Below, in pieces: positions 35,901-62,116 of a stretch of DNA of 64,000 nucleotides (positions are counted from its first letter, which is position 1; every line of letters begins with the position of its first letter). The notes under the pieces were generated by a model. That model was not told where the DNA came from. It worked only from the letters and a program-made list of their open reading frames with translations, and did not search any database. The DNA is from Anaerolinea sp. (lineage in GTDB: Bacteria > Chloroflexota > Anaerolineae > Anaerolineales > Anaerolineaceae). A program made the position numbers and the translations under genes. Where the stretch lies: contig JARKPU010000051.1 in assembly GCA_029975055.1 (NCBI GenBank), positions 124,001 through 188,000 of the forward strand, given 5' to 3'.

Positions 35901-35944
35901 GGATCGCCAACTCCTTTCGAGTGCTTCAAATCCGGCGAGAAAAG

Positions 35945-35976: not shown

Positions 35977-35994
35977 ACCCGTTACAGGAAGAGA

Positions 35995-37290: not shown

Positions 37291-37438
37291 GGTTTTACTC
37301 CTCCGAAGCTTTGAGTACAACAGATTGGAACGTTTCGACAAACGCACTGGAAATTTGGGTTTACTTTGCATCACCTCCTGCCCTGTAAAATTCCCGGATG
37401 AAATAACGATCGAGTTAGCATGCAGGGCAGCCGGATTT

Positions 37439-38443: not shown

Positions 38444-38454
38444 TCATCCACTCC

Positions 38455-39450: not shown

Positions 39451-39451
39451 A

Positions 39452-41026: not shown

Positions 41027-41060
41027 TAATCAACCCTCTCCGAGTTGGGCATTCGTTCAT

Positions 41061-41909
41061 TCATGCCAAAATGGATTTCAAGAACTTCAATCCTTGTTGG
41101 GCAATCGCATCCTGGCTGGGAGCGATCTCCCGCCAGATACATACCGCCCGTGCGATCTCTTTTACCTGTGAGGTGAAGGACTCGATCACCACCGGCCCGT
41201 CATAGCGCACGTCCTTCAGCGCCAGGGCAACTTCATCCCAGCGCACCTGACCGGTGCCGGGCACGCCGCGGTCGTTCTCGCAGGCATGGAAGTGGAAGAG
41301 TTTGCCGTTGGCCCGCCGGATCGCGTCGCCGCTGTTCTTTTCTTCCAGATGCATGTGGAAGGTGTCGAGGTGGAAGCCAACGTTATCCATGCCGGTCTGC
41401 TCGATGAAGGCAAGCCCTTGCGAAACAACGTTCAGCATGTCGGTCTCGAAGCGGTTCAAAGTCTCGAGCGCCAGTTTGACCCCTTTGCTTTGGGCATATC
41501 GGGCCATCTCGCGCACCTCGCTCACAGCCCGGTCCCATTCGGCGCGGCGGGCGGCGTCGTCTTCCAGGTGCTGCTTGCCGACCGAGGAATACATCGGCCC
41601 GCACACCGTGGGCGAACCCAGCTCGGCGGCGGCGTCAATCAACCAGCGAATATACACCTTCGCGTTCTGCACCAACTGCGGGTCGCTGCTGGCCAGGTTG
41701 CGGTCGGGGCCGAACGCCCCGCACACAATTGCATCCAGGCCGTTGGTTCGCAGGGCGGCCTTCACGCGCGGCAGGTCGAGCAGAGCCGGGTTTTCGACCG
41801 CCAGTTCGAGGATATCGAACCCCAAAGCCTTGACGTGTGGGGCCAGCTCCTCAACCGCCAGGGTGGTGCAGGGTGAGACCCATACAAAGGTGTTGACGCC
41901 GAATTTCAT
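41061..41909 (-). CDS. Sugar phosphate isomerase/epimerase (TIM barrel)
   Basis: VKLALETLNRFETDMLN, VGFHLDTFHMHLEEKN, FHFHACENDRGVPGTGQVRWDEV. Confidence 0.88.
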   Translation of the reverse strand: MKFGVNTFVWVSPCTTLAVEELAPHVKALGFDILELAVENPALLDLPRVKAALRTNGLDAIVCGAFGPDRNLASSDPQLVQNAKVYIRWLIDAAAELGSPTVCGPMYSSVGKQHLEDDAARRAEWDRAVSEVREMARYAQSKGVKLALETLNRFETDMLNVVSQGLAFIEQTGMDNVGFHLDTFHMHLEEKNSGDAIRRANGKLFHFHACENDRGVPGTGQVRWDEVALALKDVRYDGPVVIESFTSQVKEIARAVCIWREIAPSQDAIAQQGLKFLKSILA

Positions 41910-41930
41910 GCTGCGCTCCTCATCACTCGT

Positions 41931-43241: not shown

Positions 43242-43283
43242 CGTTTCCGTAAGGCGGGATTTTATCCAGTTCGAGCAAGATGG

Positions 43284-44618: not shown

Positions 44619-44666
44619 TTTCACTCCCAGAATGGTTTCAACCGCCCGAAAAACAGGTAGAGGATG

Positions 44667-44700
44667 GGGATGAGAACCCGGATCACCGGATTCTCATCCC
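44667..44700. repeat. Strong intercistronic hairpin between the Gfo/Idh/MocA and fucose isomerase-like genes
   Basis: GGGATGAGAACCCGG-ATCA-CCGGATTCTCATCCC. Confidence 0.7.
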
Positions 44701-44745
44701 TCCGGTATTTACGATGAGCTGGCGATTAAGAAGGATGGTGAAGGG

Positions 44746-45909
44746 TTACTGAACTTCGGCGACCTTCACCCGGCGGCCTTCCTTGGCCGAAATGAGGCCG
44801 GCTTCGAGGATTTGCATACCCTTCAAGCCATCCAACAGGTTCGGCGTGATGGAGGTGCCTTTTTCGATTGCGTTGAGGAAGTCCACCACGGCATGGGTGA
44901 ACTCATGCTCATAACCGATGATATGACCGGGCGGCCACCACGCGCCGACATAGGGATGTGTGGCATTGGTCACCAGAATATCGCGGAAGCCCTGCGAATC
45001 GGCTGGGTCTTCGAGGTTCAGATACTGCAGCTCGTTCATGCGTTCCAGATTGAACGCCAGCGAGCCTTTGCTGCCGTAGATCTCGAAGAAGTTGTAATTC
45101 TTGCGGCCGCTGGCAAACCGGCTGGCTTCAAACGAACCAAGCGCGCCGTTGGCGAATTCCACCACCATGAAGGCCGCGTCGTCAACCGAAACCTTGCCCT
45201 TATCGCCGCCGCCGGTGCCGGCCTTGAACGTGCCTGCGCCTTGACCCGGCAACGGGCGTTCGGTGATGAAGGTCTTGAGCATCGCCATCACTGAGTCGAC
45301 TTCGCCGACCAGGTAGCGGGCCAGGTCCACCGAGTGTGAGTTCAGATCAAAGTGCGGGCCTGCGCCGGCATACTTGGACTGCAAGTGCCAGGTGAGCGGG
45401 AAGTTCGGATCGGTGATCCAGTCTTGCAGATACGCTCCGCGCCAGTGGTAGATGGTGCCCAGCTTTCCCTCTTCGATCATCTGCCTGGCGTAGGCAATTG
45501 CCGGGGTGCGGCGGTAGTTATGGTTGAGGTAATGCACCACACCGGCTTTTTCGGCGGCTTCGTACATCGCTTTGGCCTCGGCGTAGTTGAGGGCAACCGG
45601 CTTCTCGCAGAAAATGTGCTTGCCGGCTTCCGCCGCGGCGATCACGATGTCTTTATGCAGGTAGGTGGGGGTGCTGATATCGACGATGTCGATGTCTTTG
45701 CGCTCAATGACCTTGCGCCAGTCGGTTTCGACCTCTTCCCAGCCCCAGTTGTTCGCAAACTCCTGGGTGCCGGCCGGGTCTTGCCCGCAGGCCACCTTGA
45801 GGATGGGCTTCAACCCAACCTTGAAGAACTTCGGCGCATTCGTCCAGGCGTTGCTATGCGCTTTGCCCATGAACTTTGTGCCGATGATAGCCACGTTCAC
45901 TGGTTTCAC
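44746..45909 (-). CDS. Gfo/Idh/MocA family oxidoreductase
   Basis: MKPVNVAIIGTKFMGKAHSNAW, DIVDISTPTYLHKDIVIAAAEAGKHIFCEKPVALNYAEAKAM. Confidence 0.94.
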   Translation of the reverse strand: MKPVNVAIIGTKFMGKAHSNAWTNAPKFFKVGLKPILKVACGQDPAGTQEFANNWGWEEVETDWRKVIERKDIDIVDISTPTYLHKDIVIAAAEAGKHIFCEKPVALNYAEAKAMYEAAEKAGVVHYLNHNYRRTPAIAYARQMIEEGKLGTIYHWRGAYLQDWITDPNFPLTWHLQSKYAGAGPHFDLNSHSVDLARYLVGEVDSVMAMLKTFITERPLPGQGAGTFKAGTGGGDKGKVSVDDAAFMVVEFANGALGSFEASRFASGRKNYNFFEIYGSKGSLAFNLERMNELQYLNLEDPADSQGFRDILVTNATHPYVGAWWPPGHIIGYEHEFTHAVVDFLNAIEKGTSITPNLLDGLKGMQILEAGLISAKEGRRVKVAEVQ

Positions 45910-45948
45910 GGGTTCTCTCCTTTTTTGCAGTGCAAAACGGTGAACAGG

Positions 45949-46809
45949 CTAGTTCAGGGTCGCGGCGATGCGCTTGAGCTCTTTTACGCTCAATTCAACC
46001 GCTTCATCTTCGCGATCGACCCAATCGGTGTGCGGGTGATCAATTTCAACCGCCAGGAAGCCCTTGAAGCCGGCCTGATGCAGCAATTGAGCGAGCTTTT
46101 CGTTGTTAATCAGGCCCTTTCCAACCGGCACGCCGGCAAAGAAGAACCAATCGGTTGGCCGGGCGTTCTTGTCGGGATACAGGTCCTTAACATGGGTTGC
46201 TAACACGTACGGGGCCAGCTTTTCCATCCCGGCGATAGGATCGTCTAACAGACGCAGGAAGTTGCCGGTATCGAAATTGAGGCCAAAATACTCCGAGTCA
46301 ACCTCCGTGATGAGCTTGAGAATTTCGTCGGATGTGAAATCGATGTGGTTTTCAACCGCCAGCTTGATTTCGTAGTCTTTGGCCACTTTGACGGCTTCTT
46401 TGAACATCTTTACCAGGGCTTCAATCTGCGGGCCGTGCGGTTCGTGGCGGAACATCAGGCTGGAGCCGACCACACGCATCACTTCCGCGCCAATTGCCTT
46501 GGCATGCGGGATCATGGAGACCATCTCGTTGTAGGCGGTGAAGTTCTTGCCGCGCTCCAGTCCGTCGGGGTGCCCCCAGGCAAAGACGCGGTCAAAACCG
46601 TATTCGTCCAGTTGAGCCTTCAAGTCCTTGAAGAAGGCTGCCTCATAGGACGGGAAGAAGCATGACTCGAGCGAGACCCCATCCACCCCAAGCTCTTTAG
46701 CCCGGGTGAGGAAGTCTTGCATGGTCATATTTTTGGCGGGTGGCTTTTGATCGGGGTACACCTCGCCAAAAAACCGGTGATAGCAATAACTATCGATCCC
46801 TACTTTCAT
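45949..46809 (-). CDS. Sugar phosphate isomerase/epimerase (TIM barrel)
   Basis: MKVGIDSYCYHRFFGEVYPDQ, IKLAVENHIDFTSDEIL, FGLNFDTGNFLRLLDDP, VLATHVKDLYPD. Confidence 0.88.
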   Translation of the reverse strand: MKVGIDSYCYHRFFGEVYPDQKPPAKNMTMQDFLTRAKELGVDGVSLESCFFPSYEAAFFKDLKAQLDEYGFDRVFAWGHPDGLERGKNFTAYNEMVSMIPHAKAIGAEVMRVVGSSLMFRHEPHGPQIEALVKMFKEAVKVAKDYEIKLAVENHIDFTSDEILKLITEVDSEYFGLNFDTGNFLRLLDDPIAGMEKLAPYVLATHVKDLYPDKNARPTDWFFFAGVPVGKGLINNEKLAQLLHQAGFKGFLAVEIDHPHTDWVDREDEAVELSVKELKRIAATLN

Positions 46810-46910: not shown

Positions 46911-46930
46911 TTGTTATTACAGGATAACAT
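46911..46930 (-). promoter_or_regulatory. GntR-family operator 3; promoter -10 TATAAT (46933-46938), -35 TTGTAT (46955-46960), minus strand
   Basis: TTGTTATTACAGGATAACAT; same spacing relative to TATAAT as the other two sites. Confidence 0.7.
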
Positions 46931-47156
46931 GTATTATAACGATTGATTCGGAAAATACAATAGGGTCAGCAGAAAAAAATACAAAATTCAAACAATAAAG
47001 CACACTTTTGTCTACGCCGGATAAAAGTTCCTTTTCAAAGAAATACCCGCAAGCGAAATCCTCCCTGCCAGGCGGTTTCGAGATTCACCTTCGGGCCGAT
47101 CTCCACGCTGTTTAGCGAGAACACCGCTAATGAATACAAAGGGGTTGCCCCAAAAG

Positions 47157-47203
47157 AGGGCGGACACACGCTTCTTCAAGCGGCTGAAGCGGCGGTCCGC
47201 CCC
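47157..47203 (-). terminator. Terminator-like hairpin downstream of the second transcription unit
   Basis: GGGCGGAC...GTCCGCCC; TCTTTT-containing tail on the minus strand. Confidence 0.4.
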
Positions 47204-47281
47204 CTGTGTATGGCGGTTCTCTCAGCCTGCTGGTTCTTTTTAGGTAGCCCCTCCGAGCGTGAATGGCTTTGTCGCCTCGGT

Positions 47282-48523
47282 TTACGTGTGGTTGACGCGC
47301 AGCTTGCCCTTGACTTTGCGGGTCTGGACAAGCACGTCGGTGTAGTATTTGTTGTAGGTGGCGCAGCCAATCGGGGCCTGCTGGATGAGCAGCTCGAGGC
47401 AGTTATCGCACGTGGTGCAATAATTGATCTCATCTTCACGGCCCTCGCGCAGCTTGAGCGGCAGGAGCGGGTCGGCCAGCGACTGGCGGCCGAGGCCGAT
47501 CATATCCACGTAGCCGCGCTCGATGTTCTTTGCGCCATACGTCAGCAGCGATGCGTCTTCTTGCGAGACGGCCTGCAGCTTGTTCTTACCCTTGCCGAAT
47601 ACCGAGTAATTCGAGCCGATGATGACCGTCTCACGACGGACGTTCTCTTTGAGCACCTTGGCGAAGAACTGGTGCAGGTAGGCGAAGTAGGGGTGGTCTT
47701 TGTCGGCCTGGGTCAGGCTGATGGTGATCGACGGGCTGCCCGCCGACTGGATGAAGAACTGCGCGCCGCGCTCTTCCAGACCTTTAACAAGGTCGATCGG
47801 CTCGGTCAGGTCGATAATCGGCGTGTCGGGGCCGGCTGTGCCGAAGCCGCCCGGGAAGCCTTCCCAAACCGAAATTTTGGAGCCGATCAGGAAGTTGGGA
47901 TCGGGCACCACTTTGCGGATGCGCTCATACAAATCGAAGGCGAACTGGCGGCGGTTTTCCCACGGGCCGCCGTACTTCCACTTGCGGCTGTTATAAGGGC
48001 GCAGCACCTGCGAGCCAAGATAGCCGTGGCAGAACTTCATGTCGATGCCGTCGGCACCGGCTTCGTAGGTCAGTTTGGCGGCCAGGACGAAGTCATCGAC
48101 GATCTTGTCGAATTGCTCTTCCGTGATGACTTCCGCTTCGAAGCCGGGCAGCGGGTTCACCGACAGGCGTTTGGAAAATTCGGGGTTGCTCAGCTCGCCC
48201 GAGTGGGTGAGCTGGAAGATGAACAGCGTTTTCGGGTTGACTTCACGCAGGCGGCTGACAAACCGGGTCAGCGCGGGCAAGTTCTGAGGCATGATAAACA
48301 ATTGGTTCATGCGCGAGCGGTTTTTATCGGTAATGGTAATAGCCTCCAGGCACACCAAACCGGCTTCGCCGCGGAACAGGTTTTCATACCGCTGGTAGGT
48401 GAGATCGGTCGGGTTGCCTTCAGGGTCTGCATCGTTGCACTCCATCGGCTGGATGAAGAAGCGGTTCTGGGCAGTGCGGGTACCGATCTGAATGGGCGAT
48501 AGCAAGACAGCTCGTTTATCCAT
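47282..48523 (-). CDS. NADH:flavin oxidoreductase (old yellow enzyme family)
   Basis: LLSPIQIGTRTAQNRFFIQPMECND, FQLTHSGELSNPEF, GIDMKFCHGYLGSQVLRPYNSRKWKYGGPWENRRQF, CTTCDNCLEL. Confidence 0.9.
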   Translation of the reverse strand: MDKRAVLLSPIQIGTRTAQNRFFIQPMECNDADPEGNPTDLTYQRYENLFRGEAGLVCLEAITITDKNRSRMNQLFIMPQNLPALTRFVSRLREVNPKTLFIFQLTHSGELSNPEFSKRLSVNPLPGFEAEVITEEQFDKIVDDFVLAAKLTYEAGADGIDMKFCHGYLGSQVLRPYNSRKWKYGGPWENRRQFAFDLYERIRKVVPDPNFLIGSKISVWEGFPGGFGTAGPDTPIIDLTEPIDLVKGLEERGAQFFIQSAGSPSITISLTQADKDHPYFAYLHQFFAKVLKENVRRETVIIGSNYSVFGKGKNKLQAVSQEDASLLTYGAKNIERGYVDMIGLGRQSLADPLLPLKLREGREDEINYCTTCDNCLELLIQQAPIGCATYNKYYTDVLVQTRKVKGKLRVNHT

Positions 48524-48624
48524 TCTAGATTCCTTTCTACGTCAATCGGTGGGGTAATATATAAACGGCAAATGGGGTTTGTGGCCTTTTCGGACAGGCA
48601 GCCAAGCCATAATCATTGAATAAG

Positions 48625-49014
48625 TTACAACTTCTCGCAGAACTCGATTGTCACGCCATTGGGGTCGAGGAAGAGCAGCACCCGGGCGCCCAAATCCGGC
48701 AGGTCGCAGGTTGGCAGCGTGATCTCTACACCTGCTGCGCGCAGCTCGCGCTCGTGCGCCGCCACATCCCGCACCTGGAACGCCAGATGGCGGTAGCCGC
48801 GGTCGCTTTCCAGCATCTCCGGGCTGCGGTTCTTACCCCGGTAATCGAACAACTCTAAACGCGCGCCGCCCGGCAACTGGAAGTAGGTGATGTCAAAATC
48901 ACCGCAGTCCACCGTCTGCAGCCGTTTAAAACCCAGGATACGGCTGTAGAAATCATACGATTTCTGAGCATCCAGGCAGTTGATCGAAACATGATCGATG
49001 GCGGTGATATCCAA
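48625..49014 (-). CDS. VOC (glyoxalase/bleomycin resistance) family protein
   Basis: ITAIDHVSINCLDAQKSYDFYSRILGFKRLQ...FQLPGGARLELFDY...GYRHLAFQVRDVAAHERELRAAGVEI...FLDPNGVTIEFCE; TTG start with GGAGG upstream. Confidence 0.88.
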   Translation of the reverse strand: MDITAIDHVSINCLDAQKSYDFYSRILGFKRLQTVDCGDFDITYFQLPGGARLELFDYRGKNRSPEMLESDRGYRHLAFQVRDVAAHERELRAAGVEITLPTCDLPDLGARVLLFLDPNGVTIEFCEKL

Positions 49015-49079
49015 GAAGCGCCTCCACTCTGACAAGTGTGCCGCCCATACACCCCGTATGGGCGGCACACGCGCGGTGA

Positions 49080-50138
49080 CTAGAGAACCTCGCGCTGATT
49101 GATTTCCGGCGAGACAAAGATCTTGAACAGGTCGGGGTTGCGGCGCAGCTCGTGCAGCGCCCACTCCAGGTCTTCCAACGGAACCTTCATGGAGAACAGC
49201 GGCTTGGGGTCGATGCGGCCAAATTCCAGCAGCTTAATGGCATCCGGCCAGTCCGCGCCCTGCCCGGCGCAAGAACCGGTGATCTTCTTCTCGCCCAGCA
49301 CGAACTCGAACGGGCGGATGGCCATGGCGTCCTGTTCACCGGTGATGCCAAAGGACGAGAGCGTGCCGCCGTTGCGCAGCATGGCAAAGGCCTGCTCGTA
49401 AGTTTTCGGCGTACCGACGGCTTCGATCACGTAGTCCGCGCCAAGGCCGCCGGTCAGCTTCTTAACTTCCGCCACGGGGTCTTCGACTTGGCGCACGTCG
49501 ATGATGAAGTCTGCGCCCATCTTCTCGGCGATCTTGAGACGGTGAGTGTTATTGCCGATTACGATCACCGGCGCCGCGGCGCGCAGTCGAGCCAGCGCGC
49601 CGTGCAGCACGCCCAAACCGCAGCCCAGCACCGCAACGCTGCTGCCAATGGTGGCGTTCATTGCCTTTGCGGCATGGATGCAGCAGGAAAGCGGTTCAAT
49701 GAAGGCGCCTTCTTCAAAGCTCAGGTTATCGGGCAGCCTGTGCAGCAGTTTCGCCGGAGCTTTCACGTATTCGGCGAAGGTGCCATTGGTGTGGATGCCC
49801 AGCTGGGTGAAGGTGGTGCACAGCAGCGGGTTGCCCTTCATGCAGTAGAAGCAGGTGCCGCAGGCCATGTTGATATCGGCGGTCACCCGGTCGCCTTCTT
49901 GCCAGCCTTTAACGTTCTTGCCGACCCCGGCGATAACGCCGGAGAACTCGTGGCCCGCGATCATGGGCAGCTTATCGGCTGAATACCAGCCGTTGTAGAT
50001 ACTCCAGTCGGTGCCGCAGATACCGGTGTTCTTGACTTTAATCAACACATCGTCGGGGCCAATTTCCGGGACAGGCACTTCCTTGACCTTGATGGTCTTG
50101 ATGGCCTCAAATACTGCCGCTTTCATCATTTTTGCCAT
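49080..50138 (-). CDS. Zinc-dependent alcohol dehydrogenase (polyol/threonine dehydrogenase-like)
   Basis: NTGICGTDWSIYNGWYSADKLPMIAGHEFSGVIAGVGKNVKGWQEGDRVTADINMACGTCFYC; GCGLGVLHGALA. Confidence 0.93.
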   Translation of the reverse strand: MAKMMKAAVFEAIKTIKVKEVPVPEIGPDDVLIKVKNTGICGTDWSIYNGWYSADKLPMIAGHEFSGVIAGVGKNVKGWQEGDRVTADINMACGTCFYCMKGNPLLCTTFTQLGIHTNGTFAEYVKAPAKLLHRLPDNLSFEEGAFIEPLSCCIHAAKAMNATIGSSVAVLGCGLGVLHGALARLRAAAPVIVIGNNTHRLKIAEKMGADFIIDVRQVEDPVAEVKKLTGGLGADYVIEAVGTPKTYEQAFAMLRNGGTLSSFGITGEQDAMAIRPFEFVLGEKKITGSCAGQGADWPDAIKLLEFGRIDPKPLFSMKVPLEDLEWALHELRRNPDLFKIFVSPEINQREVL

Positions 50139-50168
50139 GGGATTCGCTCCTGTTAGAAAACACAAAAG

Positions 50169-51140
50169 TTAGTTGAACAGGACATCGTTCCGCCCTTCGT
50201 AGGGCTTCTCGATCATCAAGGGCTTGAGAAAAGCAATCGTCTTGGTGATGCCATCCTGGCGGCTCATGGTGACGTCTTCGTGCTCGTAGCTCATCACGTA
50301 GTCGTAGCCGATCAACGACAGCTCGGTGATGACCTTCTTCCACGGCACCGAACCCCAGCCGGGAATGCGGAAGCGGAAGCCGCGGTCGAGACGCTGCCAG
50401 TCGCCCTGCGGGATGACGCCCGAGCGGCGCACGTTGTGCGCCACAATCTCGCCATCCTTGGCGTGCACATGGTAAATGCGCCCGCGCAGCGCGTCGATGA
50501 AGTTCTCGACGTCGATGCCGAGGTAGATCAGGTTGGCGGGGTCAAAGTTGAAGCCGAATTCCTTGCGCCCACCCATCAGCTCGACGGCGCGCAGGGCAGT
50601 TTCGACGTTGTAGATCAGCTCGTTCGGGTGCGGTTCATGGGCAAACTTGACGCCATACTCGGCGAACTTGTCGAGGATTTTGCTCCACCGTTCGACAAAT
50701 TCCACTTCCATGTCCGCCCAGCCTTTTGAATACGGCCAGGGGAAGAAGCGGCCGAAATTCTCGCAGCCCACAAAGCCGGTCACTACCGGAACTTCGAGGG
50801 CATTGGCGGCGGCGGCTGTCTGGACCATGCGCTTCATGCCGTAGGCAATCTTTTCTTCCTTGGTGCCAGGGAAAATTGCATCGGTGTCTTTGCCAAACGG
50901 GCCAAGAACAATCTGGCCTTCGGGGTGGTTGGCCAGGGCTGAGATGATCAGGCCATAATCCTTGACCATCTTTTTGAGCTTTTCGGCGTTATTGCCTTTG
51001 ACGACCTCTTCAATATCCAGGTGGGGGTTGTTGGCGAACGCCGGCAATTCAACTGCCTGGTAACCCAGGCCGGATGCCATTTTGAAGACATCCTCAAGCG
51101 GCTTATCCAGATACGTGGCAGTAAACAGACCGATTTTCAT
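50169..51140 (-). CDS. Sugar phosphate isomerase/epimerase (TIM barrel)
   Basis: VKFAHEPHPNELIYNVETALRAVELMGG, FGFNFDPANLIYLGID, YHVHAKDGEIVAHNVRRSGVIPQGDWQRLDRGFRFRIPGWGSVPWKKVI. Confidence 0.9.
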   Translation of the reverse strand: MKIGLFTATYLDKPLEDVFKMASGLGYQAVELPAFANNPHLDIEEVVKGNNAEKLKKMVKDYGLIISALANHPEGQIVLGPFGKDTDAIFPGTKEEKIAYGMKRMVQTAAAANALEVPVVTGFVGCENFGRFFPWPYSKGWADMEVEFVERWSKILDKFAEYGVKFAHEPHPNELIYNVETALRAVELMGGRKEFGFNFDPANLIYLGIDVENFIDALRGRIYHVHAKDGEIVAHNVRRSGVIPQGDWQRLDRGFRFRIPGWGSVPWKKVITELSLIGYDYVMSYEHEDVTMSRQDGITKTIAFLKPLMIEKPYEGRNDVLFN

Positions 51141-51313
51141 TTTGTGCTTTCCCTTTCTTCCAGAAGATGAATGAGATTCTTGGGGATGCGATTAGCCAGG
51201 GGCGAGACCGTTCATCAGGTTCAGCGAGGTGCGCAGCACGGGGAAGCAAGAAAAACCTCTCACTCCCTACAGGCGCAAGATACAGAGCACCTCCGATGGA
51301 TCCGCAATTAATC

Positions 51314-51334
51314 TTGTTATTACAGGATTACAAC
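51314..51334 (-). promoter_or_regulatory. GntR-family operator 2; promoter -10 TATAAT (51337-51342), -35 TTGACA (51360-51365), 17-bp spacer, minus strand
   Basis: TTGTTATTACAGGATTACAAC adjacent to a consensus sigma70 promoter. Confidence 0.78.
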
Positions 51335-51400
51335 CCATTATAGGAAAGACGGTAGCCTCTGTCAAGCTCCAATCACGAATCGCTTGTATAAATCAGTCGG

Positions 51401-52939
51401 CTACAGGTCCACCTCTCGCAGCGCATCGCTGATTTTGGCCAGGTAACCGGTGGCAAGTTCGAACACTGGCAGAAGCCGTTCGTACTGTGCATTGCGTGCG
51501 GGGTCCGGCTCGACTCGCTCGACAATCTTGTGGATGTCATCGATGTGCGTAAAGTCGCGCCACAACCCGCAGCCCACCGCCGCGATCGCCGCCGCGCCGA
51601 GCGCCGCCGCATCCTGGTCGATGTTGGTCTTGAGGACCGTGGTGTTGAAGACGTCGGCAAAAATGCCCAGGTAGAAGCGGCTCTTGGCGCCGCCGCCCAC
51701 GAACAGGATTTCATCTTCCAGGCGGGTGTACTTTCGCAGCAGGTCGAGGCGCAGGCGCAGGTTCATGGCGATGCCTTCCATTGCGGCGCGGATTAACTCG
51801 GGTTTACCGTGTTTAAGATCCAGCCCGAAGTAAGCGCCGCGCATGTGCACGCTGTCATCCTGCGAAGTTCCGCCCGCCAGGCTGGGGTTAAAGATCAGGC
51901 GATTCGACCCGAGGGGGGCCTTCTCGGCTTCGCGATTCATCAGGACGTACACATCCTGCCCGTTGCGCCCGGCTTCGGCGATCAGCTCGGCGCACAGGTT
52001 ATCTTTGACCCAGGTGTAGGTGGTTCCTGCTGAGAAGATGCTGACCGCCGAGGTGAACAATCGCGGCACAACGTGGGTGAATACATACGGCTTGAGCTTC
52101 CGGTCGAGCACCGGCCGGGCCGAAGAAACGGCGATCCAGGCTGAGGAACCGAGCGAGGTATAGACTCGCCCGTCAAGGATGTTCTTGGCACCCAGCGCCA
52201 TGCAGGAGTTATCTACCCCTCCGGCGACAACCTGCACCTCCTTGGGCAGCCCGAGCGCGGAGGCGGCCGCAGGGGTGAGGGTGCCGATCACCTGCGTGGA
52301 GGGTACAATTTCGGGCCAGACACCGGCGGGGATGCCGCTGGCGGCAATGAAGCGGTCTTCGTACCGCCAACCGGCTAGGTTATAGACGCCGGTGCCCGAA
52401 GCGTAGGAGTAGTCGGTGACGAGCTTGCCTGTGAGCAAATAATTAATGTAGTCCTTGGTGCCGATGACCTTATCTACCTGCCGCCACATCTCCGGCTCAT
52501 GATCGCGGTACCACATCATTTTGAAGACGGTATATAGCGGGGCCGGGAAGCCATTGCCGGTGGTCATATACCACTCATCGGGGTCGATGGCCTGGAAGAA
52601 TGCAGCCGCCTGTTCCTGGGCGCGCATGTCCGACCAGATCGGCGTGGTCTCGCGCAGCAGGTTCCCGGCTTTATCCAGGGGCACCGCGCCCAGGCTGTGG
52701 CCGGAAATGCCAATCGCCAGCACGCGCTGGGGGTCAATGCCGGAGGCAGCCAGCAGCTTGCGGGTGCTTTCGACCACCGCCTGCCACCAGTCGGCCGGTT
52801 TTTGCTCGTGCCAGCCGACCTGCGGATAGTGGGTGGGGTAACCGGTGAAGGCGCTTGCCAGCACGTTGCCGCTTGCATCATACAGTGATGCTTTATTGCC
52901 GCCCGTGCCCAGATCGAAGGAAAGGATGACCTTGTCCAT
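51401..52939 (-). CDS. FGGY family carbohydrate kinase (xylulokinase-like)
   Basis: MDKVILSFDLGTGGNKASLYDASGNVLA, IGISGHSLGAVPLD, FVGGGAKSRFYLGIFADVFNTTV. Confidence 0.93.
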   Translation of the reverse strand: MDKVILSFDLGTGGNKASLYDASGNVLASAFTGYPTHYPQVGWHEQKPADWWQAVVESTRKLLAASGIDPQRVLAIGISGHSLGAVPLDKAGNLLRETTPIWSDMRAQEQAAAFFQAIDPDEWYMTTGNGFPAPLYTVFKMMWYRDHEPEMWRQVDKVIGTKDYINYLLTGKLVTDYSYASGTGVYNLAGWRYEDRFIAASGIPAGVWPEIVPSTQVIGTLTPAAASALGLPKEVQVVAGGVDNSCMALGAKNILDGRVYTSLGSSAWIAVSSARPVLDRKLKPYVFTHVVPRLFTSAVSIFSAGTTYTWVKDNLCAELIAEAGRNGQDVYVLMNREAEKAPLGSNRLIFNPSLAGGTSQDDSVHMRGAYFGLDLKHGKPELIRAAMEGIAMNLRLRLDLLRKYTRLEDEILFVGGGAKSRFYLGIFADVFNTTVLKTNIDQDAAALGAAAIAAVGCGLWRDFTHIDDIHKIVERVEPDPARNAQYERLLPVFELATGYLAKISDALREVDL

Positions 52940-53005
52940 GGATTCACCTGTCGAGAAGGGTGAGGTTAGAAAGCAGGCGCTGTTTTCTGGTCTATGTTTC
53001 GGTCG

Positions 53006-53698
53006 TTACACTTCCACACCGCCCAGGGCGAGTGCGGTTTCGACAATTTCGATGCCGCTTTTGAGGTTGATGCCAAACCGGCGGGCGCCGGCCCGGTACA
53101 TGGCAGCCAGCCCGTCCACGCCGCGGATGCCGCCGGACGCCTTGATCTGCACCCGGTCGCCGACGATGGACTTGACCAGGGTCACATCCTCAAGGGTCGT
53201 GCCACGCGAAGCCCAGCCGGTGCCGGTTTTGACAAAGGCTGCCCCGGCGCGGATGGCGATCTCGCAGGCGGCCCGCACTTCTTCGGGGGTCAGGTACATG
53301 ATCTCGATGATCACCTTCACCGGCAGCGGTCGGGCGGCGGCCACCACAGCGCGCGCATCCGCTTCAACCTCCGTCAGCATGCCCGAACGCAGCATGCCGA
53401 CGTTGATGACCATGTCGATTTCGTCGCAGCCGGCGGCTTTCATCGCCTCGGCCTGGAAGACCTTCACCGCCGTGCTGTCGGAGCCGGAGGGAAAGCTGAC
53501 GTTGCCGACGATGCGCACCTCGGGGTGCCCCTGCAGAAGCTGCTTCGTATAGGGGATGAAACATTCCAGCACCGATACCTGCCCAAAGCCATACCGGATT
53601 GCCGCAGACACCATCTCTTCGATCTCGGCTTTGTTCGAGGTGGTGCGCACGCACGAAAGATCGATCCGTCGGGCAATTTCCTGTGCGGTAATCTTCAT
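53006..53698 (-). CDS. deoC: Deoxyribose-phosphate aldolase
   Basis: ARRIDLSCVRTTSNKAEIEEMVSAA, VGNVSFPSGSDSTAVKVFQAEAMKAAGCDEIDMVINVGML, FVKTGTGWASRGTTLEDV, IKASGGIRGVDGLAAMYRAGARRFG. Confidence 0.92.
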   Translation of the reverse strand: MKITAQEIARRIDLSCVRTTSNKAEIEEMVSAAIRYGFGQVSVLECFIPYTKQLLQGHPEVRIVGNVSFPSGSDSTAVKVFQAEAMKAAGCDEIDMVINVGMLRSGMLTEVEADARAVVAAARPLPVKVIIEIMYLTPEEVRAACEIAIRAGAAFVKTGTGWASRGTTLEDVTLVKSIVGDRVQIKASGGIRGVDGLAAMYRAGARRFGINLKSGIEIVETALALGGVEV

Positions 53699-53709
53699 CG
53701 TAACAGGTC

Positions 53710-54672
53710 CTATCTGGCGCGCACGGTGGAAGCAACTTCGTTCAGGCGGTTGAACAGCTCGGGGGTCAGGTCAAAATGCAGCACCTGGGCGATCACCTGC
53801 GTCCAGCCGTGGACGAAGTACAACCAGCCGTCTTCCACGATGACGTTGCGGGTCTTGACTTGCGCAAGCGCCTGGTGCATGAAATCCAGCTCGCCGCGGT
53901 AGTTGAATTCCCAGGCGATGGCGCGCTCGGGGAACTTGCCTTCCCAGGTGATCGGCGAGCCGGGGGTATCTTTGCCCATGCCCGTCGCGTTGATGATGAT
54001 GCTGCAGGGGGGGAACTGCTCCATCAGCCTGTCGTTCACGGCCGGGTCGGAATTCTGGATGTATTCGATCTCGATGTCGGTTTTCAACCCGCCGACCATC
54101 TCTTTGGCGTGGTCAAGCCGGCCCTGCGAGCGGTTTACGAAGGTGAAGCGCCGCGGGCGGTCGCCCTTGTCTTTCTTGTTGATCAGGTGGAGTAAGGTGG
54201 CGATGGCCGAGCCGCCGGCGCCGAAGCATAACACCTCGCCGCCGGTGCGGGCGAAATAATCCTTGCCAATGATCGCGTCCAGGCTGGCGCCTGAGCTGAT
54301 CGGGTCCTTGGCGTGGCCTTCCAACCGGCCATCGCGCTTCGAGATGCTGGAGACCTCGTCGGTGATCTGGGCGTATGGATCGAGGTAGTCGAACATGTCG
54401 CGGGCAGCGGTCAGCAGGTCGATCTTGTGGGTGGTGACCAGCGCGCCGAGCGAGAGCGGGTCGTATTTAATTTGCGCAACGGCCGCCCGGTAGACTTCGG
54501 GGTCGTCGTGAATTTTGCAGTCGATCCCTTCGAGCACGACCTCTTCGCGCCCGAGGACTTTCATCCACAGCGGAAAGACTTTCACGATCGAAGATTTACC
54601 GGTGGTAACGCCGATAAAATAGAATGTCGGAACAGTTTTCGTCACAATCGGATATGGAATTTTGGTTTGCAT
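53710..54672 (-). CDS. Shikimate dehydrogenase (AroE)-like family protein
   Basis: FIGVTTGKSSIVKVFPLWMKVLG, GALVTTHKIDLL, VLCFGAGGSAIATLLHLI, SIIINATGMGKDTPGSP. Confidence 0.8.
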   Translation of the reverse strand: MQTKIPYPIVTKTVPTFYFIGVTTGKSSIVKVFPLWMKVLGREEVVLEGIDCKIHDDPEVYRAAVAQIKYDPLSLGALVTTHKIDLLTAARDMFDYLDPYAQITDEVSSISKRDGRLEGHAKDPISSGASLDAIIGKDYFARTGGEVLCFGAGGSAIATLLHLINKKDKGDRPRRFTFVNRSQGRLDHAKEMVGGLKTDIEIEYIQNSDPAVNDRLMEQFPPCSIIINATGMGKDTPGSPITWEGKFPERAIAWEFNYRGELDFMHQALAQVKTRNVIVEDGWLYFVHGWTQVIAQVLHFDLTPELFNRLNEVASTVRAR

Positions 54673-54722
54673 GGTTCCCTCCCGGACCTGAATGAAAAAT
54701 TCCATCGTTAACGGTTAAAACT

Positions 54723-55703
54723 TCACACCACGCGGTATTTTGGCTCCTCTCCGCACAGGACGGCCAGACAATCCCGCAGGGCGAACCAACCCATGTTTTT
54801 GGTCGCGCCATCGGTTTGAGCGCCCAGGTGGGGAGTGGCTATCACCTGCGGCAGGTGCAGCAACGGGTTGGCCGGGTCGGGCGGTTCGACCACAAAGGCA
54901 TCCAGGCCCGCCCCGCGCAAATGACCGCTCTCCAGGGCCCGCAGCAGCGCCATCTCATCGATCACCTCACCGCGCGCGGTGTTGATCAGGTACGAGCCTT
55001 TCTTCATGCGCGCCAGGAAATCATCGTTCACCATGCCCCTGGTTTCCGGCGTCAATGGCATGTGCAGGCTGACGACGTCCGAGTTCCGAATCACCTCGTC
55101 CAGCGTGGCAAACTCCACCTGGTTTGCCGCCGCAAATTCAAGGTTCGGACAGGGGTCGTAAGCCAGGATGCGGCAGTCAAAACCCGCAAGCCGCCTGGCA
55201 AGCTGCTTGCCTATGGCGCCCAGCCCCAGGATCCCGACCGTCTTGCCTTCCAGCGACAGGCCGGAAAGGCGCGGCCATTTGCCCTGCCGGACGCTCTCCA
55301 CGCCTTCGGGGATATGGCGCATCAATGCCAGCATCAAGCCCAGCGCCAATTCCGCCACCGACACCGTGTTGGCCCCGGGGGTGTTGGTCACGATAATGCC
55401 CTTTTCCTTGCAGGCTTCCAGGTCAACGTTGTCCACGCCCACGCCGTAGCGGGCAATCACCTTCAGGCGGTCGGCGCATTCAAGCGCAGCGCGGTCGATC
55501 ACGTCCAGGCCTGCCAGGTAAGCATCGACGCCGGGCAGGAGCGCCGCCACTTCCGCAGAGGTCAGCGGCTTGCCGGTTGGGTTGTACTGCACCGAACCGA
55601 CCTGCGATTCAAGCTCGCTTTTCAGGCGCGGGTCGTCTTTCCCGTACGAGGTGGGGGTCACTAAGAAACGCGCTTGTCTGAGGTCCATTTTCGGTTTACT
55701 CAT
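54723..55703 (-). CDS. D-2-hydroxyacid/phosphoglycerate dehydrogenase family protein
   Basis: VIARYGVGVDNVDLEACKEKGIIVTNTPGANTVSVAELALGLMLALMR, KTVGILGLGAIGKQLARRLAGFDCRILAYDP, ATPHLGAQTDGATKNMG; start overlaps the upstream stop (ATGAGTAA). Confidence 0.92.
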   Translation of the reverse strand: MSKPKMDLRQARFLVTPTSYGKDDPRLKSELESQVGSVQYNPTGKPLTSAEVAALLPGVDAYLAGLDVIDRAALECADRLKVIARYGVGVDNVDLEACKEKGIIVTNTPGANTVSVAELALGLMLALMRHIPEGVESVRQGKWPRLSGLSLEGKTVGILGLGAIGKQLARRLAGFDCRILAYDPCPNLEFAAANQVEFATLDEVIRNSDVVSLHMPLTPETRGMVNDDFLARMKKGSYLINTARGEVIDEMALLRALESGHLRGAGLDAFVVEPPDPANPLLHLPQVIATPHLGAQTDGATKNMGWFALRDCLAVLCGEEPKYRVV

Positions 55704-56274
55704 GGGCATAGCGCGGGTTATCGATGATTTCGATGCCATTCTCGCCCTCGACCACCAGCTTGCGGAAGCCCAGCCGCTCGATCGTGCCATAGTCGTGCCC
55801 GGCATTGCCCGGGTAGACAAAGAAGGTAACCAGGTCTGCCTGGCGCGAGGTGCAAACCGAGCGGTGCGCCCAGCGCGGCGGCACGTACAGCACGTTACCC
55901 GGCGCCAGCGGCTGGACACAGGTTTCGCCTTCAGGGGTTTCCATTACCATGAAGCCCTCACCCTGCAGGCAGTAATACACTTCAGCAGTGTCGAGTACGG
56001 TATGGAAGTGGCCTTTGGTCATGAAGAACTCGTTGCCCACCTTGCCCGGGTGCACAATCGAGATGCCCATCAACAGCTCGCCTTCCACCGCAGGGCGCTG
56101 GATTTCATAAACTTCATAGATCACGCGGTCGTCTTCGGCCAGCATGGCCTGGTAGGTTTCGTGGTCGAGGAACTGACCTTTCATAGACGAGAGCGTACGC
56201 CTGATGTGGTTATCGATTCGAGAAGGAACGGCTCCGGGCAGGGGGATGGTAAATGAGAATGGAAAGTCGGCCAC
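55696..56274 (-). CDS. Cupin-type glucose-6-phosphate isomerase
   Basis: GISIVHPGKVGNEFFMTKGHFHTVLDTAEVYYCLQGEGFMVMETPEGETCVQPLAPGNVLYVPPRWAHRSVCTS. Confidence 0.88.
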   Translation of the reverse strand: MADFPFSFTIPLPGAVPSRIDNHIRRTLSSMKGQFLDHETYQAMLAEDDRVIYEVYEIQRPAVEGELLMGISIVHPGKVGNEFFMTKGHFHTVLDTAEVYYCLQGEGFMVMETPEGETCVQPLAPGNVLYVPPRWAHRSVCTSRQADLVTFFVYPGNAGHDYGTIERLGFRKLVVEGENGIEIIDNPRYAHE

Positions 56275-56289
56275 AAATGCCTCCAGGGG

Positions 56290-57257
56290 TCAGGGGGTTA
56301 AACCAGCCAGCCGGCGGGCGATGTTGCCGCCGAGCATCTGCTGGATTGCAGTTTCAGGGATGCCCATGCGCTCTAGGCGCGGCTTGATCTTTGCCGGCAG
56401 GCTCGCCAGCCCGGGGCCGCGCCCGGCAGCCAGGTACTGGCCGGGTTCGGCCATGTCGGTTGCCAGCACGACCCGGTCCGACAACCCGGCTGCGATCATC
56501 TTCTCGAGCAGCGGCCACAGGTTGGCTTCGGGGTCGTACTTGGGGCGGTAAAAAGTGTCATACTCGAGCAGCACGCCATGCTGGGCCAGCTCGCGATGCA
56601 GGCCTGAGTCGGGACGCTTGTCCATATGGCACAGCACCAGTTGTTGGGGCGGCACGCCCTGCGCGCCGAAGAACAGCACGACCCGCTCGGCCAGTGCTCC
56701 CTGCTCGGTGTGGATTTCCACCAGGTCGCCGGTTTGGCGGGCAGCCAGGGCCGCGCCGAGCAGCGCCTGGTGAGGCGTATCGCTCCACAACCGTTCGAGG
56801 GCCACCTTGATAAACCCGGCGCGAATTGACGTTGCGCCCTGCGATTCGCCAAGCTGCCGGGTCAGCTCATTGATGAAGAAACCGGCCGCCTGTTCGGCGC
56901 TGAAGCTGAACAGGGCATGGCCCGGCGCATAGTAGCGCGCGCGGTGGAAGCCGGTGCTGGCGATGATCTGCACGCCCGTGTCGCGCGCGAGTTGAGCCAG
57001 CCGGTTGGCGTCTCGGCCGCAGCCGGGCGGCTGGCAGTCCATCAGGCTCTGCCCGCCTGCTGCCCGGTACAGACGCAGCTCTTCTCGAATTAACTCGTAG
57101 TTGTTGAGCACCGGCGCGGCGGCATCGGCCCGGCGACCGGGCTGATCCAGGCGTGATTATGGCCGTCGGTGATGCCTAACTGCTCGTAGGGCAACTCACC
57201 CAGCACGGTGCGGATGGGTCGCGGAAGGGCAGAAGGAGAAAACGGGGAAACGGCCAC
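56290..57257 (-). pseudogene. Phosphotriesterase/lactonase-family hydrolase with apparent single-base frameshift near 57139-57141
   Basis: N-terminal frame from GTG 57257: VAVSPFSPSALPRPIRTVLGELPYEQLGITDGHNHAWISP; rest in another frame: GRRADAAAPVLNNYELIREELRLYRAAGGQSLMDCQPPGCGRD. Confidence 0.85.
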
Positions 57258-57259
57258 GA

Positions 57260-58303
57260 TCAGGGTTCCAGGACGATTTTGAGCGATTTTCGGTCTTCGG
57301 CAGCGGCAAAGGCGGCCAGGGCCTCGCGCAGCGGGAAGCGTTGACTGACCACATCCGAAAGGTCAATCACACCGGCGTTCACCAGGCGCGAGGCGCGCCA
57401 GCAGTCGTCGGTGCTGCAGGCGGTCGTGCCGGTAACGATCAGCTCCTTATAATGCACCAGGTTGGCGTCTAAGGTGATGGTGGGGCGGTCTTTGGGCAGC
57501 CCGCCGAAGAAGTTGATCCGCCCGCCGATGGCAGCCAGGTGCAGGGCCTGCTCCTGCGCTGCGTGCACAGGCGCAGCCACGATGATCGCATCCGCGCCGC
57601 GCCCGCCCGATTCTTCGAGCACTGCGGCCTGCAGGTCCTCTTCGATCGGGTTGACCACCCGGTCTGCGCCCATGCGTTTCACCTGGGCGGCCCGCTCGGC
57701 CATCGGCTCACTGACGATCACGCGGCCTGCGCCGCGCACTTTGGCGAGCTTGACGTGCATCACGCCGATCGGCCCGGCGCCGATCACCAACACAATTTCG
57801 CCCGGCTGGATGTGAAGCGCGTCTTGTCCACGCAGCACACAGGCAAACGGCTCCATCAGGGCGGCAACGGCCGGGTCGACATCCTTATTGAGCGGGATGA
57901 CGTTGCCTTGCGCCACCGAGTTGGCCGGCACGCGCACATATTCGGCGAACCCGCCGTCGATGGTGATGCCGATGGCGTCATAATTTGCGCACAGGTTGTT
58001 CTTGCCGCTGACACACTGGGGGCAGCGGCCGCATCCCATGTTGGGGGCGATGAACACGCGCTGCCCGAGGGTATAACCTTCCAGCCCGGGGCCGATCTCG
58101 GCGATGTCGCCAACCACTTCGTGACCGGGGATGCGGACGGTACCGGCGGAATACTTGCGGTGATTCCCGTGCAGGATGCGCAGGTCGGTGGCGCAGATGC
58201 TGGCATTTCGCACCTTCACCAGCAGCTCGCCCGGCCCGATCTGCGGAACCGGCACTTCTTCCACCCGCAAGTCATTCGGCCCATGATATACGGCTGCTAA
58301 CAT
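57260..58303 (-). CDS. Zinc-dependent alcohol dehydrogenase
   Basis: NASICATDLRILHGNHRKYSAGTVRIPGHEVVGDIAEIGPGL, FIAPNMGCGRCPQCVSGKNNLC, VLVIGAGPIGVMHVKLA. Confidence 0.94.
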   Translation of the reverse strand: MLAAVYHGPNDLRVEEVPVPQIGPGELLVKVRNASICATDLRILHGNHRKYSAGTVRIPGHEVVGDIAEIGPGLEGYTLGQRVFIAPNMGCGRCPQCVSGKNNLCANYDAIGITIDGGFAEYVRVPANSVAQGNVIPLNKDVDPAVAALMEPFACVLRGQDALHIQPGEIVLVIGAGPIGVMHVKLAKVRGAGRVIVSEPMAERAAQVKRMGADRVVNPIEEDLQAAVLEESGGRGADAIIVAAPVHAAQEQALHLAAIGGRINFFGGLPKDRPTITLDANLVHYKELIVTGTTACSTDDCWRASRLVNAGVIDLSDVVSQRFPLREALAAFAAAEDRKSLKIVLEP

Positions 58304-58326
58304 GGCGCTGCTCGCTTTCTGTAAGA

Positions 58327-59373
58327 CTAATGAGTCTCACCGTTAAGGATTTCGCTCAGATAAACCGGGCGTTCTTCGAGGAAAGACCTGGTTCCTGCCA
58401 GCACCCCCGCCACGGCCCAACGGCCATCCGCGCCGCCCACCTTCGGCTGCTTGCCGGTGCGGATGCATTCGGTGAAGTGCTCAAGCTCGTAGATGTAAGC
58501 CCACTGGAAACGCTGCGGCCAGGTGCGCGTGATGGGGGTGATCAGGCCCTGGTCGCGGTTGGTGCAGACGATCACTGCCTGGCCCTTGAGCTCGCCAATC
58601 TGCATGATGCCCTTATCGCCGATGATTTCCGCGCGGGCGTCATAACCGTAACCGCACGGGCACACGCCCGAAATCAGCCCCAGGCCGCCGCTCTCGAATT
58701 TGATGTTCACCAGCACGTTGTCATAGAAGTTGGGGGTATCGACGTTGTTGGCCGCGCCTTTGAAATTGGCGACCTCGGTATAGACGCGCTGATGATTGGA
58801 GCCCATCAGCCAGCGGGTGGTGTCCCAGTCATGGCTGTTGACCTCGGCCAGCATGCCGTTCGAGGTGCGCAGGTCGCGCGCCCAGGGCGGGGGCAGGCCC
58901 GGCCCGTGGGTGTTGGACTTGATCATCATCGGCGTGCCGATTTCACCGGCTTCGATACGTTCCCAGGCGGCGACGAACTCGGGGTCAAAGCGGCGCATAA
59001 ACCCCAGCTGCAACAACACGCCGTTCTTTTCGACCGCGGCGATGATTTCATCGCACTCGCGCAAGTTGAGCGCCATCGGCTTCTCGAGGAACACGTGCTT
59101 GCCGTGCTCGGCGGCCAATTGGGTGAGCGGCAGGTGCGTGGGGGTGGGGGTGGTGATCACCACGCCGTCGAATTCCACCTTGTCGAGCGCTTCTTCCAGG
59201 CTGGCGAACTGATATTCGATCCCGAACTCGGCTGCGGTTTCTGCGCGTACCGCTTCGACAGGATCTACCAGGGCGACAATTTCACTGCCGGAGACGTGGC
59301 GAGTGAGCGCGCGCGAGTGGTTTTTGCCAACGCGGCCCGCACCAATCATACAAATCCGTACCGGTCTTTTCAC
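58327..59373 (-). CDS. Gfo/Idh/MocA family oxidoreductase (inositol 2-dehydrogenase-like)
   Basis: GTG start VKRPVRICMIGAGRVGKNHSRALTRHV, DGVVITTPTPTHLPLTQLAAEHGKHVFLEKPMALNLRECDEI. Confidence 0.94.
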   Translation of the reverse strand: MKRPVRICMIGAGRVGKNHSRALTRHVSGSEIVALVDPVEAVRAETAAEFGIEYQFASLEEALDKVEFDGVVITTPTPTHLPLTQLAAEHGKHVFLEKPMALNLRECDEIIAAVEKNGVLLQLGFMRRFDPEFVAAWERIEAGEIGTPMMIKSNTHGPGLPPPWARDLRTSNGMLAEVNSHDWDTTRWLMGSNHQRVYTEVANFKGAANNVDTPNFYDNVLVNIKFESGGLGLISGVCPCGYGYDARAEIIGDKGIMQIGELKGQAVIVCTNRDQGLITPITRTWPQRFQWAYIYELEHFTECIRTGKQPKVGGADGRWAVAGVLAGTRSFLEERPVYLSEILNGETH

Positions 59374-59383
59374 GATAAACTCC

Positions 59384-60925
59384 TTACTCAGCCGACTGGC
59401 TGAAGAATTGATGCAGCATGTCTTCCATGCGGATATACCGTTCGACGAGCGGCTGGTAGGCCGTATGACGGCCGGGGTCGGGCTGGAGCGGCGCGCCTTC
59501 GGTTCGCGCAGTTGCGGCGGCATGCCCTGCCAGATCATCGATCACCCCGGCCGCTTTGCCGGCGATCATTGCTGCGCCCCAGGTGCCAAACTCGTTGCCA
59601 TGCAGCCGCTGGTATGCGACGCCCAGCACGTCGGCCTTGATCTGGTTCCAGATTGGGCTGCGCGCCCCGCCGCCGGCCGCCCGCGCCACGGTCAGGTTCA
59701 ACGAGGGCAGCAATTCCAGCAGGATGCGCAGATAGTAGGCGTACTCGTAGGCAATGCTCTCGAGGATGGCGCGGAAGAAATGCGCCTGGGTGTGCGACCA
59801 CGATACGCCGACCCACGCCCCGCGCATCGCCGGGCTGGAAGGGCAGATTCGCCCGCCCAGGTGCGGTGAGAAGAACAACCCGTCTGAACCGGGCTCGACC
59901 GCAGCAGCCAGGTCAATCATGGCCGCGTACATGTCATCCAGCGTCGGCTGGGTCTGCCCGTGGTGTGCGTTATAGAACTGGTCGCGGAACCAGCGTAACG
60001 CCAGCCCGCCCCCGCCCACGTATGCCAGCGGATTCCACAACCCCGGGATGACCGAACGCATGGTCAGCAATGCGCGGTGCCGCGTATCGGCGACGAAGGT
60101 ATCGGTGCAGCCGGCCAGCACCGAGGCGGTGCCGGCCACATCGAAGACCATGCCGGGCTGCACAATCCCCGCGCCGAGCGCGTTGGCGGCGGTATCGCCC
60201 GCCCCGGCAGCGATGGGTGTGCCGGGCGCCAGGCCAAAATCGGCGGCTGCCACGGGGGTCACCTCGCCAATCACCCGCCAGGGCTCGACGATCTCAGGCA
60301 GTTTGGCCCGGTCGAGGCCGAACCGGTCGGTCAGCTCCTCCGACCAGGTTGTGCGCCGTGCATCGGAGAAGCCGGAGAAGTGGATAAAGGTGTAATCGAT
60401 GAAGGCCTGTTCGCCCTTCAAACCGGCCATTTTACCCGCCACAAACGCGGCGGGCATCAGGAACTTGGCGGTGCGGGCGTAATCGGCGGGACGCTCGTGC
60501 TTCCACCACAACATCTTTGGGCCATGGTCGCAGGTTGGGGGGCAGCCGGTCAATTCCGTCACCCGCTCACCGGCCTCGCGGTCCATCCACTCGATGTAGG
60601 GCTGGCAGCGCATGTCCAGCCACGAGTCGAAGCGCGCCACCGGCTGGTAGTTCTCGTCCACCATGCCCACCCCCGCCATCTGAGAGTCAAACGCAATGGC
60701 AGCAATCTCACGCGCATCCACGCCGCTCTGTTCCACGCAGCGGCGCACAGTGGCCGCCGCCGACTCGTAGAAATCGTTGTTTTCTTGCTCGACGATTCCT
60801 GGCTTTGGGTGGCGCAGCGGCACTTCTACGCTGGCTTCCGCCAGCTTCTTTCCATCCGTCTGATATAAAGCAGCCTTCGTACCACTGGTACCCAGGTCAA
60901 CGCCGATCAGGTACTTTTTTGCCAT
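59384..60925 (-). CDS. FGGY family carbohydrate kinase (xylulokinase-like)
   Basis: MAKKYLIGVDLGTSGTKAALYQTDGKKLAEASVEVPLRHPKPGIVEQ, AAGAGDTAANALGAGIVQPG, ARAAGGGARSPIWNQIKADVLGV. Confidence 0.94.
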   Translation of the reverse strand: MAKKYLIGVDLGTSGTKAALYQTDGKKLAEASVEVPLRHPKPGIVEQENNDFYESAAATVRRCVEQSGVDAREIAAIAFDSQMAGVGMVDENYQPVARFDSWLDMRCQPYIEWMDREAGERVTELTGCPPTCDHGPKMLWWKHERPADYARTAKFLMPAAFVAGKMAGLKGEQAFIDYTFIHFSGFSDARRTTWSEELTDRFGLDRAKLPEIVEPWRVIGEVTPVAAADFGLAPGTPIAAGAGDTAANALGAGIVQPGMVFDVAGTASVLAGCTDTFVADTRHRALLTMRSVIPGLWNPLAYVGGGGLALRWFRDQFYNAHHGQTQPTLDDMYAAMIDLAAAVEPGSDGLFFSPHLGGRICPSSPAMRGAWVGVSWSHTQAHFFRAILESIAYEYAYYLRILLELLPSLNLTVARAAGGGARSPIWNQIKADVLGVAYQRLHGNEFGTWGAAMIAGKAAGVIDDLAGHAAATARTEGAPLQPDPGRHTAYQPLVERYIRMEDMLHQFFSQSAE

Positions 60926-61011
60926 GCGCGACTCCCGGTGATGGGGTATGGGGTGTGGATGAAAAGTCTAAAAGTAAATCTTTATCGAATGGCTTCACCA
61001 TCCGACCATGG

Positions 61012-61788
61012 CTAGGATGAAATTCTTGCTTTATCTTGATCGCTGAGGCGAACGAGTTCCACTTCGAAGCGCGAGCGGTCTCCGCGGTGGAGGGCGTGAT
61101 AATACTCGATCGGCAGGTCGGCCTCCCCGTAGGTGACGGAATCGAGCATCAACAACGGCGATCCACGCTCAATGTGCAGCAGTTCGGCTTCGGTTTCATT
61201 TGCCAGCACGGCTTCGATGTAGCGCCGCCCGCGCATCAGCCGGATGCCGCCTTCCTTTTCGAGGAACTCGTAGAGCGAACGGTCGGTCAGGTCCACCGTC
61301 GCCAGGGGCGGGAAGATATGGTAAGGAATATAGGTGGTGACCAGCTGGATGGGTTCGTCGTTGATAAAGCGCAGACGTTGGATGTCGACCACCAACGTTC
61401 CGGGCTGGACTTTGAGGAAACGGGCGACTTGCGGATTGGCCCCAACCACCCGTTGGTGCAACACTTTGGTCACCGGCTTCAGGCCGCGCTCCACCATATC
61501 CTGGTAGAAGCCGGTCAACTTTTGAATGAGGCCCTCGCTGATCTTTGGCTCGGAGATGAAAGTGCCTTTGCCCTTGCGGCGGGTGATCACCCCGGCCAGT
61601 TCCAGTTCGCGCAGAGCCTGGCGCACAACGGTGCGGCTGACGTGATACAGCTCGCACAGCTCCTGCTCGCCGGGGATCTGCTCGCCGGGCAGCCACTTTT
61701 TTTGATGAACCTGCTCTTTGAAGAGATCGATCAGCTGAATGTAGTACGGGATATGACTCTCGAAGTCGATGGCCTGGCCATTTTCCAT
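61012..61788 (-). CDS. GntR family transcriptional regulator (HutC/UTRA type)
   Basis: PYYIQLIDLFKEQVHQKKWLPGEQIPGEQELCELYHVSRTVVRQALRELELAGVITRRKGKGTFI; C-terminal UTRA-like domain. Confidence 0.95.
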   Translation of the reverse strand: MENGQAIDFESHIPYYIQLIDLFKEQVHQKKWLPGEQIPGEQELCELYHVSRTVVRQALRELELAGVITRRKGKGTFISEPKISEGLIQKLTGFYQDMVERGLKPVTKVLHQRVVGANPQVARFLKVQPGTLVVDIQRLRFINDEPIQLVTTYIPYHIFPPLATVDLTDRSLYEFLEKEGGIRLMRGRRYIEAVLANETEAELLHIERGSPLLMLDSVTYGEADLPIEYYHALHRGDRSRFEVELVRLSDQDKARISS

Positions 61789-61808
61789 GAGATTTCCTTT
61801 GGAATGTC

Positions 61809-61833
61809 TTGTTGTAATCCTGTAATTACAACA
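61809..61833 (-). promoter_or_regulatory. GntR-family operator 1 (autoregulatory); promoter -10 TATAAT (61836-61841), -35 TTGACA (61859-61864), 17-bp spacer, minus strand
   Basis: TTGTTGTAATCCTGTAATTACAACA, with inverted arms TGTTGTAAT-N5/6-ATTACAACA. Confidence 0.8.
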
Positions 61834-62116
61834 GTATTATAGGACGTTTCAAGGCGCGTGTCAATAGGTATCGAGAAGGGAGAAAGGCGTGCGGGATTGA
61901 ATCGCCGAGTTCTTTCAAACGCCCCGCCGGCGGCTGCGGAACGAACGGAGCATCATGCCGGGCGATGCGGCCGGCTGCGGGGCGAGCAGCACTTCGCCGA
62001 ATTGCAGCTGCTGTCAGCTCCGGCCGCCGTGACTACCACTTATCTTGTGGATTGATTCTTGGGGGGCAAGATGGTTGCCAGGACTTGATATAAAGTTGTA
62101 TAACCAATTATATTGT

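Follow-up and report, generated by a model that had tools for sequence, protein, structure and literature searches.

Three near-identical operator sites lie at promoters of a carbohydrate gene cluster in Anaerolinea sp., within the 64,000-nucleotide stretch of DNA analyzed here (the window). They very probably serve a HutC autorepressor that binds a 12-bp core at all three promoters, helped by a third half-site and relieved by a sugar-type inducing effector. Computational analysis shows the motif, its restriction to the cluster, and its association with the regulator gene.

Three sites in a sugar gene cluster

How are the sites arranged relative to the genes? The cluster lies on the minus strand. 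Unit 1 (51401..61788) encodes, by Pfam and NCBIfam matches, gntR, an FGGY kinase, an IolG-like Gfo/Idh protein, a zinc alcohol dehydrogenase (ADH), a PTE-like protein, a 2-hydroxyacid dehydrogenase, a shikimate-dehydrogenase-like protein, DeoC, and a further FGGY kinase. Unit 2 (47282..51140) comprises a TIM-barrel protein resembling 2-hydroxy-3-keto-glucal hydratase, a zinc ADH, and an FMN oxidoreductase of the old-yellow-enzyme (OYE) type. Unit 3 (34150..46809) carries a TIM-barrel protein, a levoglucosan-dehydrogenase-like Gfo/Idh protein, a 446-aa protein, a ROK protein, a psicose-epimerase-like protein, a sugar ABC transporter, and two more TIM-barrels. Gene order within units 1 and 3 is kept in relatives. 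The split into three transcription units, as proposed in the first-pass annotation, is plausible, and additional promoters or other control inside the units are conceivable, given the gaps within them and the ROK protein of the cluster. Two proteins stand out as side observations. The 446-aa protein (43284-44624, minus strand) had no Pfam, NCBIfam, or PDB match, a profile search returned no solved relative, and single-sequence structure prediction gave a pLDDT of 37.9, too low to interpret; it is conserved at the same place in relatives (62-71%). A 331-aa protein (53710-54705, minus strand) has weak shikimate-dehydrogenase matches only and stays with the regulator in the relatives' gene set.

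The first-pass annotation had described three near-identical sites immediately 3' of promoters, and both direct reading and a 20-mer search recovered them. Read on the minus strand, they run TTGACA-17-TATAAT-ACTG-TTGTAATTACAGGATTACAA (site 1), TTGACA-17-TATAAT-GGG-TTGTAATCCTGTAATAACAA (site 2), and TTGTAT-16-TATAAT-AC-ATGTTATCCTGTAATAACAA (site 3). Operator 1 (61812..61831) reads TTGTAATCCTGTAATTACAA on the plus strand, with its core TGTAATTACA at 61821-61830 and the third half-site on the gene side; operators 2 (51314..51333, core 51315-51324) and 3 (46911..46930, core 46912-46921) lie on the minus strand, in the orientation opposite to site 1. The promoters of units 1 (61836..61864) and 2 (51337..51365), also on the minus strand, match the sigma-70 consensus at 12/12 positions and are the only such matches within 44000-63500. 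The promoter of unit 3 (46933..46960, minus strand; read directly) has a weak -35. The near-constant spacing claimed between the -10 element and the site applies to the outer edge of the 20-mer (4, 3, and 2 nt for sites 1, 2, and 3) but not to the 10-bp palindromic core TGTnATnACA (5, 12, and 11 nt, from coordinates): site 1 faces the other way from sites 2 and 3, and therefore the core-to-promoter spacing varies.

How exclusive is the motif to the cluster? A 20-mer search allowing up to 3 mismatches found exactly three matches in the window—the three operators—and 0 in 100 shuffles of the sequence. Pattern searches of the 4.59-Mb genome with the 18-mer TGTNATCCTGTAATNACA gave 3 perfect matches, 0 with 1-2 mismatches, and 6 with 3, while the bare 12-bp core YTGTNATNACAR occurred at the three cluster places only. 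The first-pass annotation had suggested a genome-wide scan for further targets and held that many copies before unrelated genes would speak against the regulon; by the 18-mer and core patterns, the motif is restricted to this one cluster. A promoter-plus-core pattern search of the genome returned one further TATAAT with core TGTTATGACA outside the cluster (L121, G000:C32:49110-49133).

Operator anatomy

The operator motif is tTGTnATCyTGTnATnACAa. On the right it holds a 12-bp inverted repeat in which GT-N4-AC shows the HutC spacing; the TGTnAT on the left forms a direct repeat at a distance of 8 bp and is conserved almost as well as the core. In HutC operators GT and AC are separated by 4 nt, and weaker extra half-sites 7-12 nt from the site center have been described in the subfamily (PMC4494728). 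The core TGTnATnACA has GT and AC 4 nt apart in 3/3 sites, and the operator is probably a HutC-type core, TTGTnATnACAA (GT-N4-AC), accompanied at 8 bp by a third half-site in direct orientation. The sites had been called palindromic, which is probably too simple a description; an asymmetric operator of three half-sites fits better.

Instead of a 12-bp core with an added half-site, the unit recognized by a single dimer might be the full 20-bp palindrome, with 7-bp arms around a 6-bp spacer, as the first-pass annotation implied. Conservation of the outer arms comes close to that of the inner arms, and the outer symmetry is kept in site 3 (TGTTAT...ATAACA). We nonetheless regard this reading as unlikely: a 20-bp unit departs from the GT-N4-AC rule, the sites at the ROK promoters of relatives L041 and L067 keep the core with the outer half-site altered, and the site of an outgroup homologue (L071) is of the 12-bp type. 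Variable positions showed no significant covariation, either in the core or in the outer palindrome, so the choice of the core rests on spacing, the outgroup, and the relatives' ROK sites.

The regulator and its link to the motif

Which protein would bind these sites? The proposed repressor, encoded at 61012..61788 on the minus strand, contains both an N-terminal GntR winged helix-turn-helix (wHTH; Pfam GntR, 2.5e-18) and a C-terminal UTRA domain (1.4e-42), the combination that marks the HutC subfamily, and its nearest solved structures are YvoA/NagR and DasR. Homologues at ~50-78% identity occur in many Anaerolineae. The closest (G231, 78%) comes from another family of the order, and the same-genus homologue (G294) reaches just 58%; from these values, acquisition of the gene cluster by horizontal transfer is possible.

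The comparison covered about 40 related genomes. In 42 of 52 loci from relatives, the regulator gene has the motif (≤2 mismatches) within ~110 bp of upstream sequence; no upstream site with ≤2 mismatches was found in the other 10, several of whose regulator genes are not first in their operon. Co-occurrence was scored in 300 genomes of the order, using the exact motif TGTNATCYTGTNATNACA and E ≤ 1e-60 for a close homologue. The motif was present in 32 genomes, a close homologue in 43, and both in 27; that is, 27/43 genomes with a close homologue carry the motif compared with 5/257 without (Fisher p 2e-22, which is overstated, as the sampled genomes are related to each other). The sites collected had themselves been picked with the pattern. 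A reversed-pattern control gave 0 in the 300 genomes. In three of the five motif genomes lacking a close homologue (L076, L077, and L085), the site falls, according to ORF lists, between convergent ORFs or next to them, and these matches look like background. Because position and genome co-occurrence tie the motif to the regulator, the GntR protein is well supported as the predicted binder of the three sites. The assignment of the operators to this regulator in the first-pass annotation is thus supported by domains, position in relatives, and co-occurrence, with binding itself predicted from sequence.

The ROK-family protein (41931-43241) is another candidate binder, NagC/Mlc-like and encoded inside unit 3, and several relatives have a motif-bearing promoter immediately before the ROK gene. 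We consider it a very improbable one: the motif is at or near gntR in L047, L065, L105-L108, and L109-L110, in whose retrieved neighborhoods no ROK homologue was detected, and the outgroup homologue L071 shows a classical HutC site in that same position.

For the GntR regulator, we infer binding, repression, a role for the third half-site, and an effector. The 61012-61788 protein would act as a HutC-subfamily autorepressor whose dimer binds the 12-bp core, which overlaps, or sits just downstream of, the predicted transcription start at the three promoters. The third half-site would strengthen binding and perhaps recruit a second dimer. Binding of a sugar, keto-sugar, or sugar-phosphate intermediate to the UTRA domain would then free the DNA, so that the genes for uptake and catabolism are induced together. 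That the sites act instead in RNA, as 5'-leader hairpins or attenuators, is hardly credible, although all three lie in or beside the predicted transcript start and have inverted arms, since the arms are short and A/T-rich with no T-run after them, site 1 is reversed relative to transcription, and the third half-site is a direct repeat.

Operator history and relation to known regulons

Are the operators fixed relative to the genes? Close relatives (L041-L046, L067, L101-L104, L115, and L117-L120) divide the genes between two divergent operons, gntR...OYE and TIM_46809...ABC/TIM, each preceded by one site. The window regulator nests with G231 inside this group (97/91 support), and for that reason the window's collinear layout is most simply read as derived. 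Site 3 looks to have moved together with its operon; its counterpart in relatives sits before the operon orthologous to unit 3. Inspection of five relatives turned up no site in the gap preceding the unit-2 isomerase, and site 2 was found in the window only. A promoter with operator core often precedes the ROK gene in relatives (L041, L042, L044, L067, and L101, between the 446-aa gene and ROK); the window has none there. Operator positions vary while the gene set stays.

The system resembles the NagR/YvoA and DasR dre-site regulons in its GntR wHTH plus UTRA architecture and its short inverted-repeat operators with GT-N4-AC, and differs in the half-site (TTGT rather than TGGT), the central AT rather than TA, the lack of an Arg38 equivalent, the conserved third half-site, and a carbohydrate cluster without obvious GlcNAc genes. 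In NagR, where sugar phosphates relieve repression, Arg38 reads G-5 and Arg48 reads G-4 (PMC4333415). The clade studied here has Gln, Pro, Val, Glu, and similar residues at the Arg38 equivalent (Gln in the window regulator) and T at the corresponding base; the clade, including the window regulator, keeps the Arg48 equivalent and, in its operators, the G that this residue would read. The dre-site pairing of both arginines with two adjacent G is accordingly absent, the operator having TG in place of GG. The outgroup homologue L071 (38% identity) retains the Arg38 equivalent and has TGGTCTAGACCA at the equivalent place. The match between the TGGT-to-TTGT shift and Arg38-equivalent loss is suggestive only, because NagR itself tolerates T at -5 in one half-site.

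The extra half-site falls within 7-12 nt of the site center, as in the HutC sites of Suvorova et al. 2015 (PMC4494728), but is conserved nearly at core level, whereas theirs score about half the core; that study lists no Chloroflexi HutC regulators. A literature search on Anaerolineae GntR regulons yielded nothing about this one. More speculatively, and less likely than not, a Chloroflexota HutC clade might depend on an obligate operator of three half-sites (a 12-bp inverted core and an 8-bp direct half-site) bound by two cooperating dimers; its specificity would have shifted when the Arg38 contact was lost, and its operators would relocate upon operon rearrangement.

What might the regulon control? 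The cluster seems to encode a sugar 3-oxidation/elimination pathway: the levoglucosan-dehydrogenase-like protein of unit 3 and the 2-hydroxy-3-keto-glucal hydratase-like protein of unit 2 suggest that an anhydrosugar or glycoside undergoes C3 oxidation, elimination, and hydration. It shares with the levoglucosan genes lgdA-lgdB1-lgdB2-lgdC (PMC10066097, PMC7676230) an LgdA-like Gfo/Idh protein, glucal-hydratase-like and other TIM-barrels, and a sugar ABC transporter, but has many extra genes (FGGY kinases, PTE-like, 2-hydroxyacid dehydrogenase, DeoC). The LgdA-like protein scores 355 bits against the solved LGDH 6a3f and, at 395 bits, falls far below the equivalog cut-off of 650 for NCBIfam NF052479, so we assign no single substrate.

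Taken together, sequence comparison supports well a local, conventional regulon with a slightly unusual operator. It offers a testable regulator-operator pair for a phylum without HutC regulators in the comparative study cited above, a natural residue-base substitution series in which Arg38 loss accompanies TGGT to TTGT, and operators that can be traced as operons are rearranged. It further defines a coherent set of genes, the inducer of which would show what sugar is degraded.
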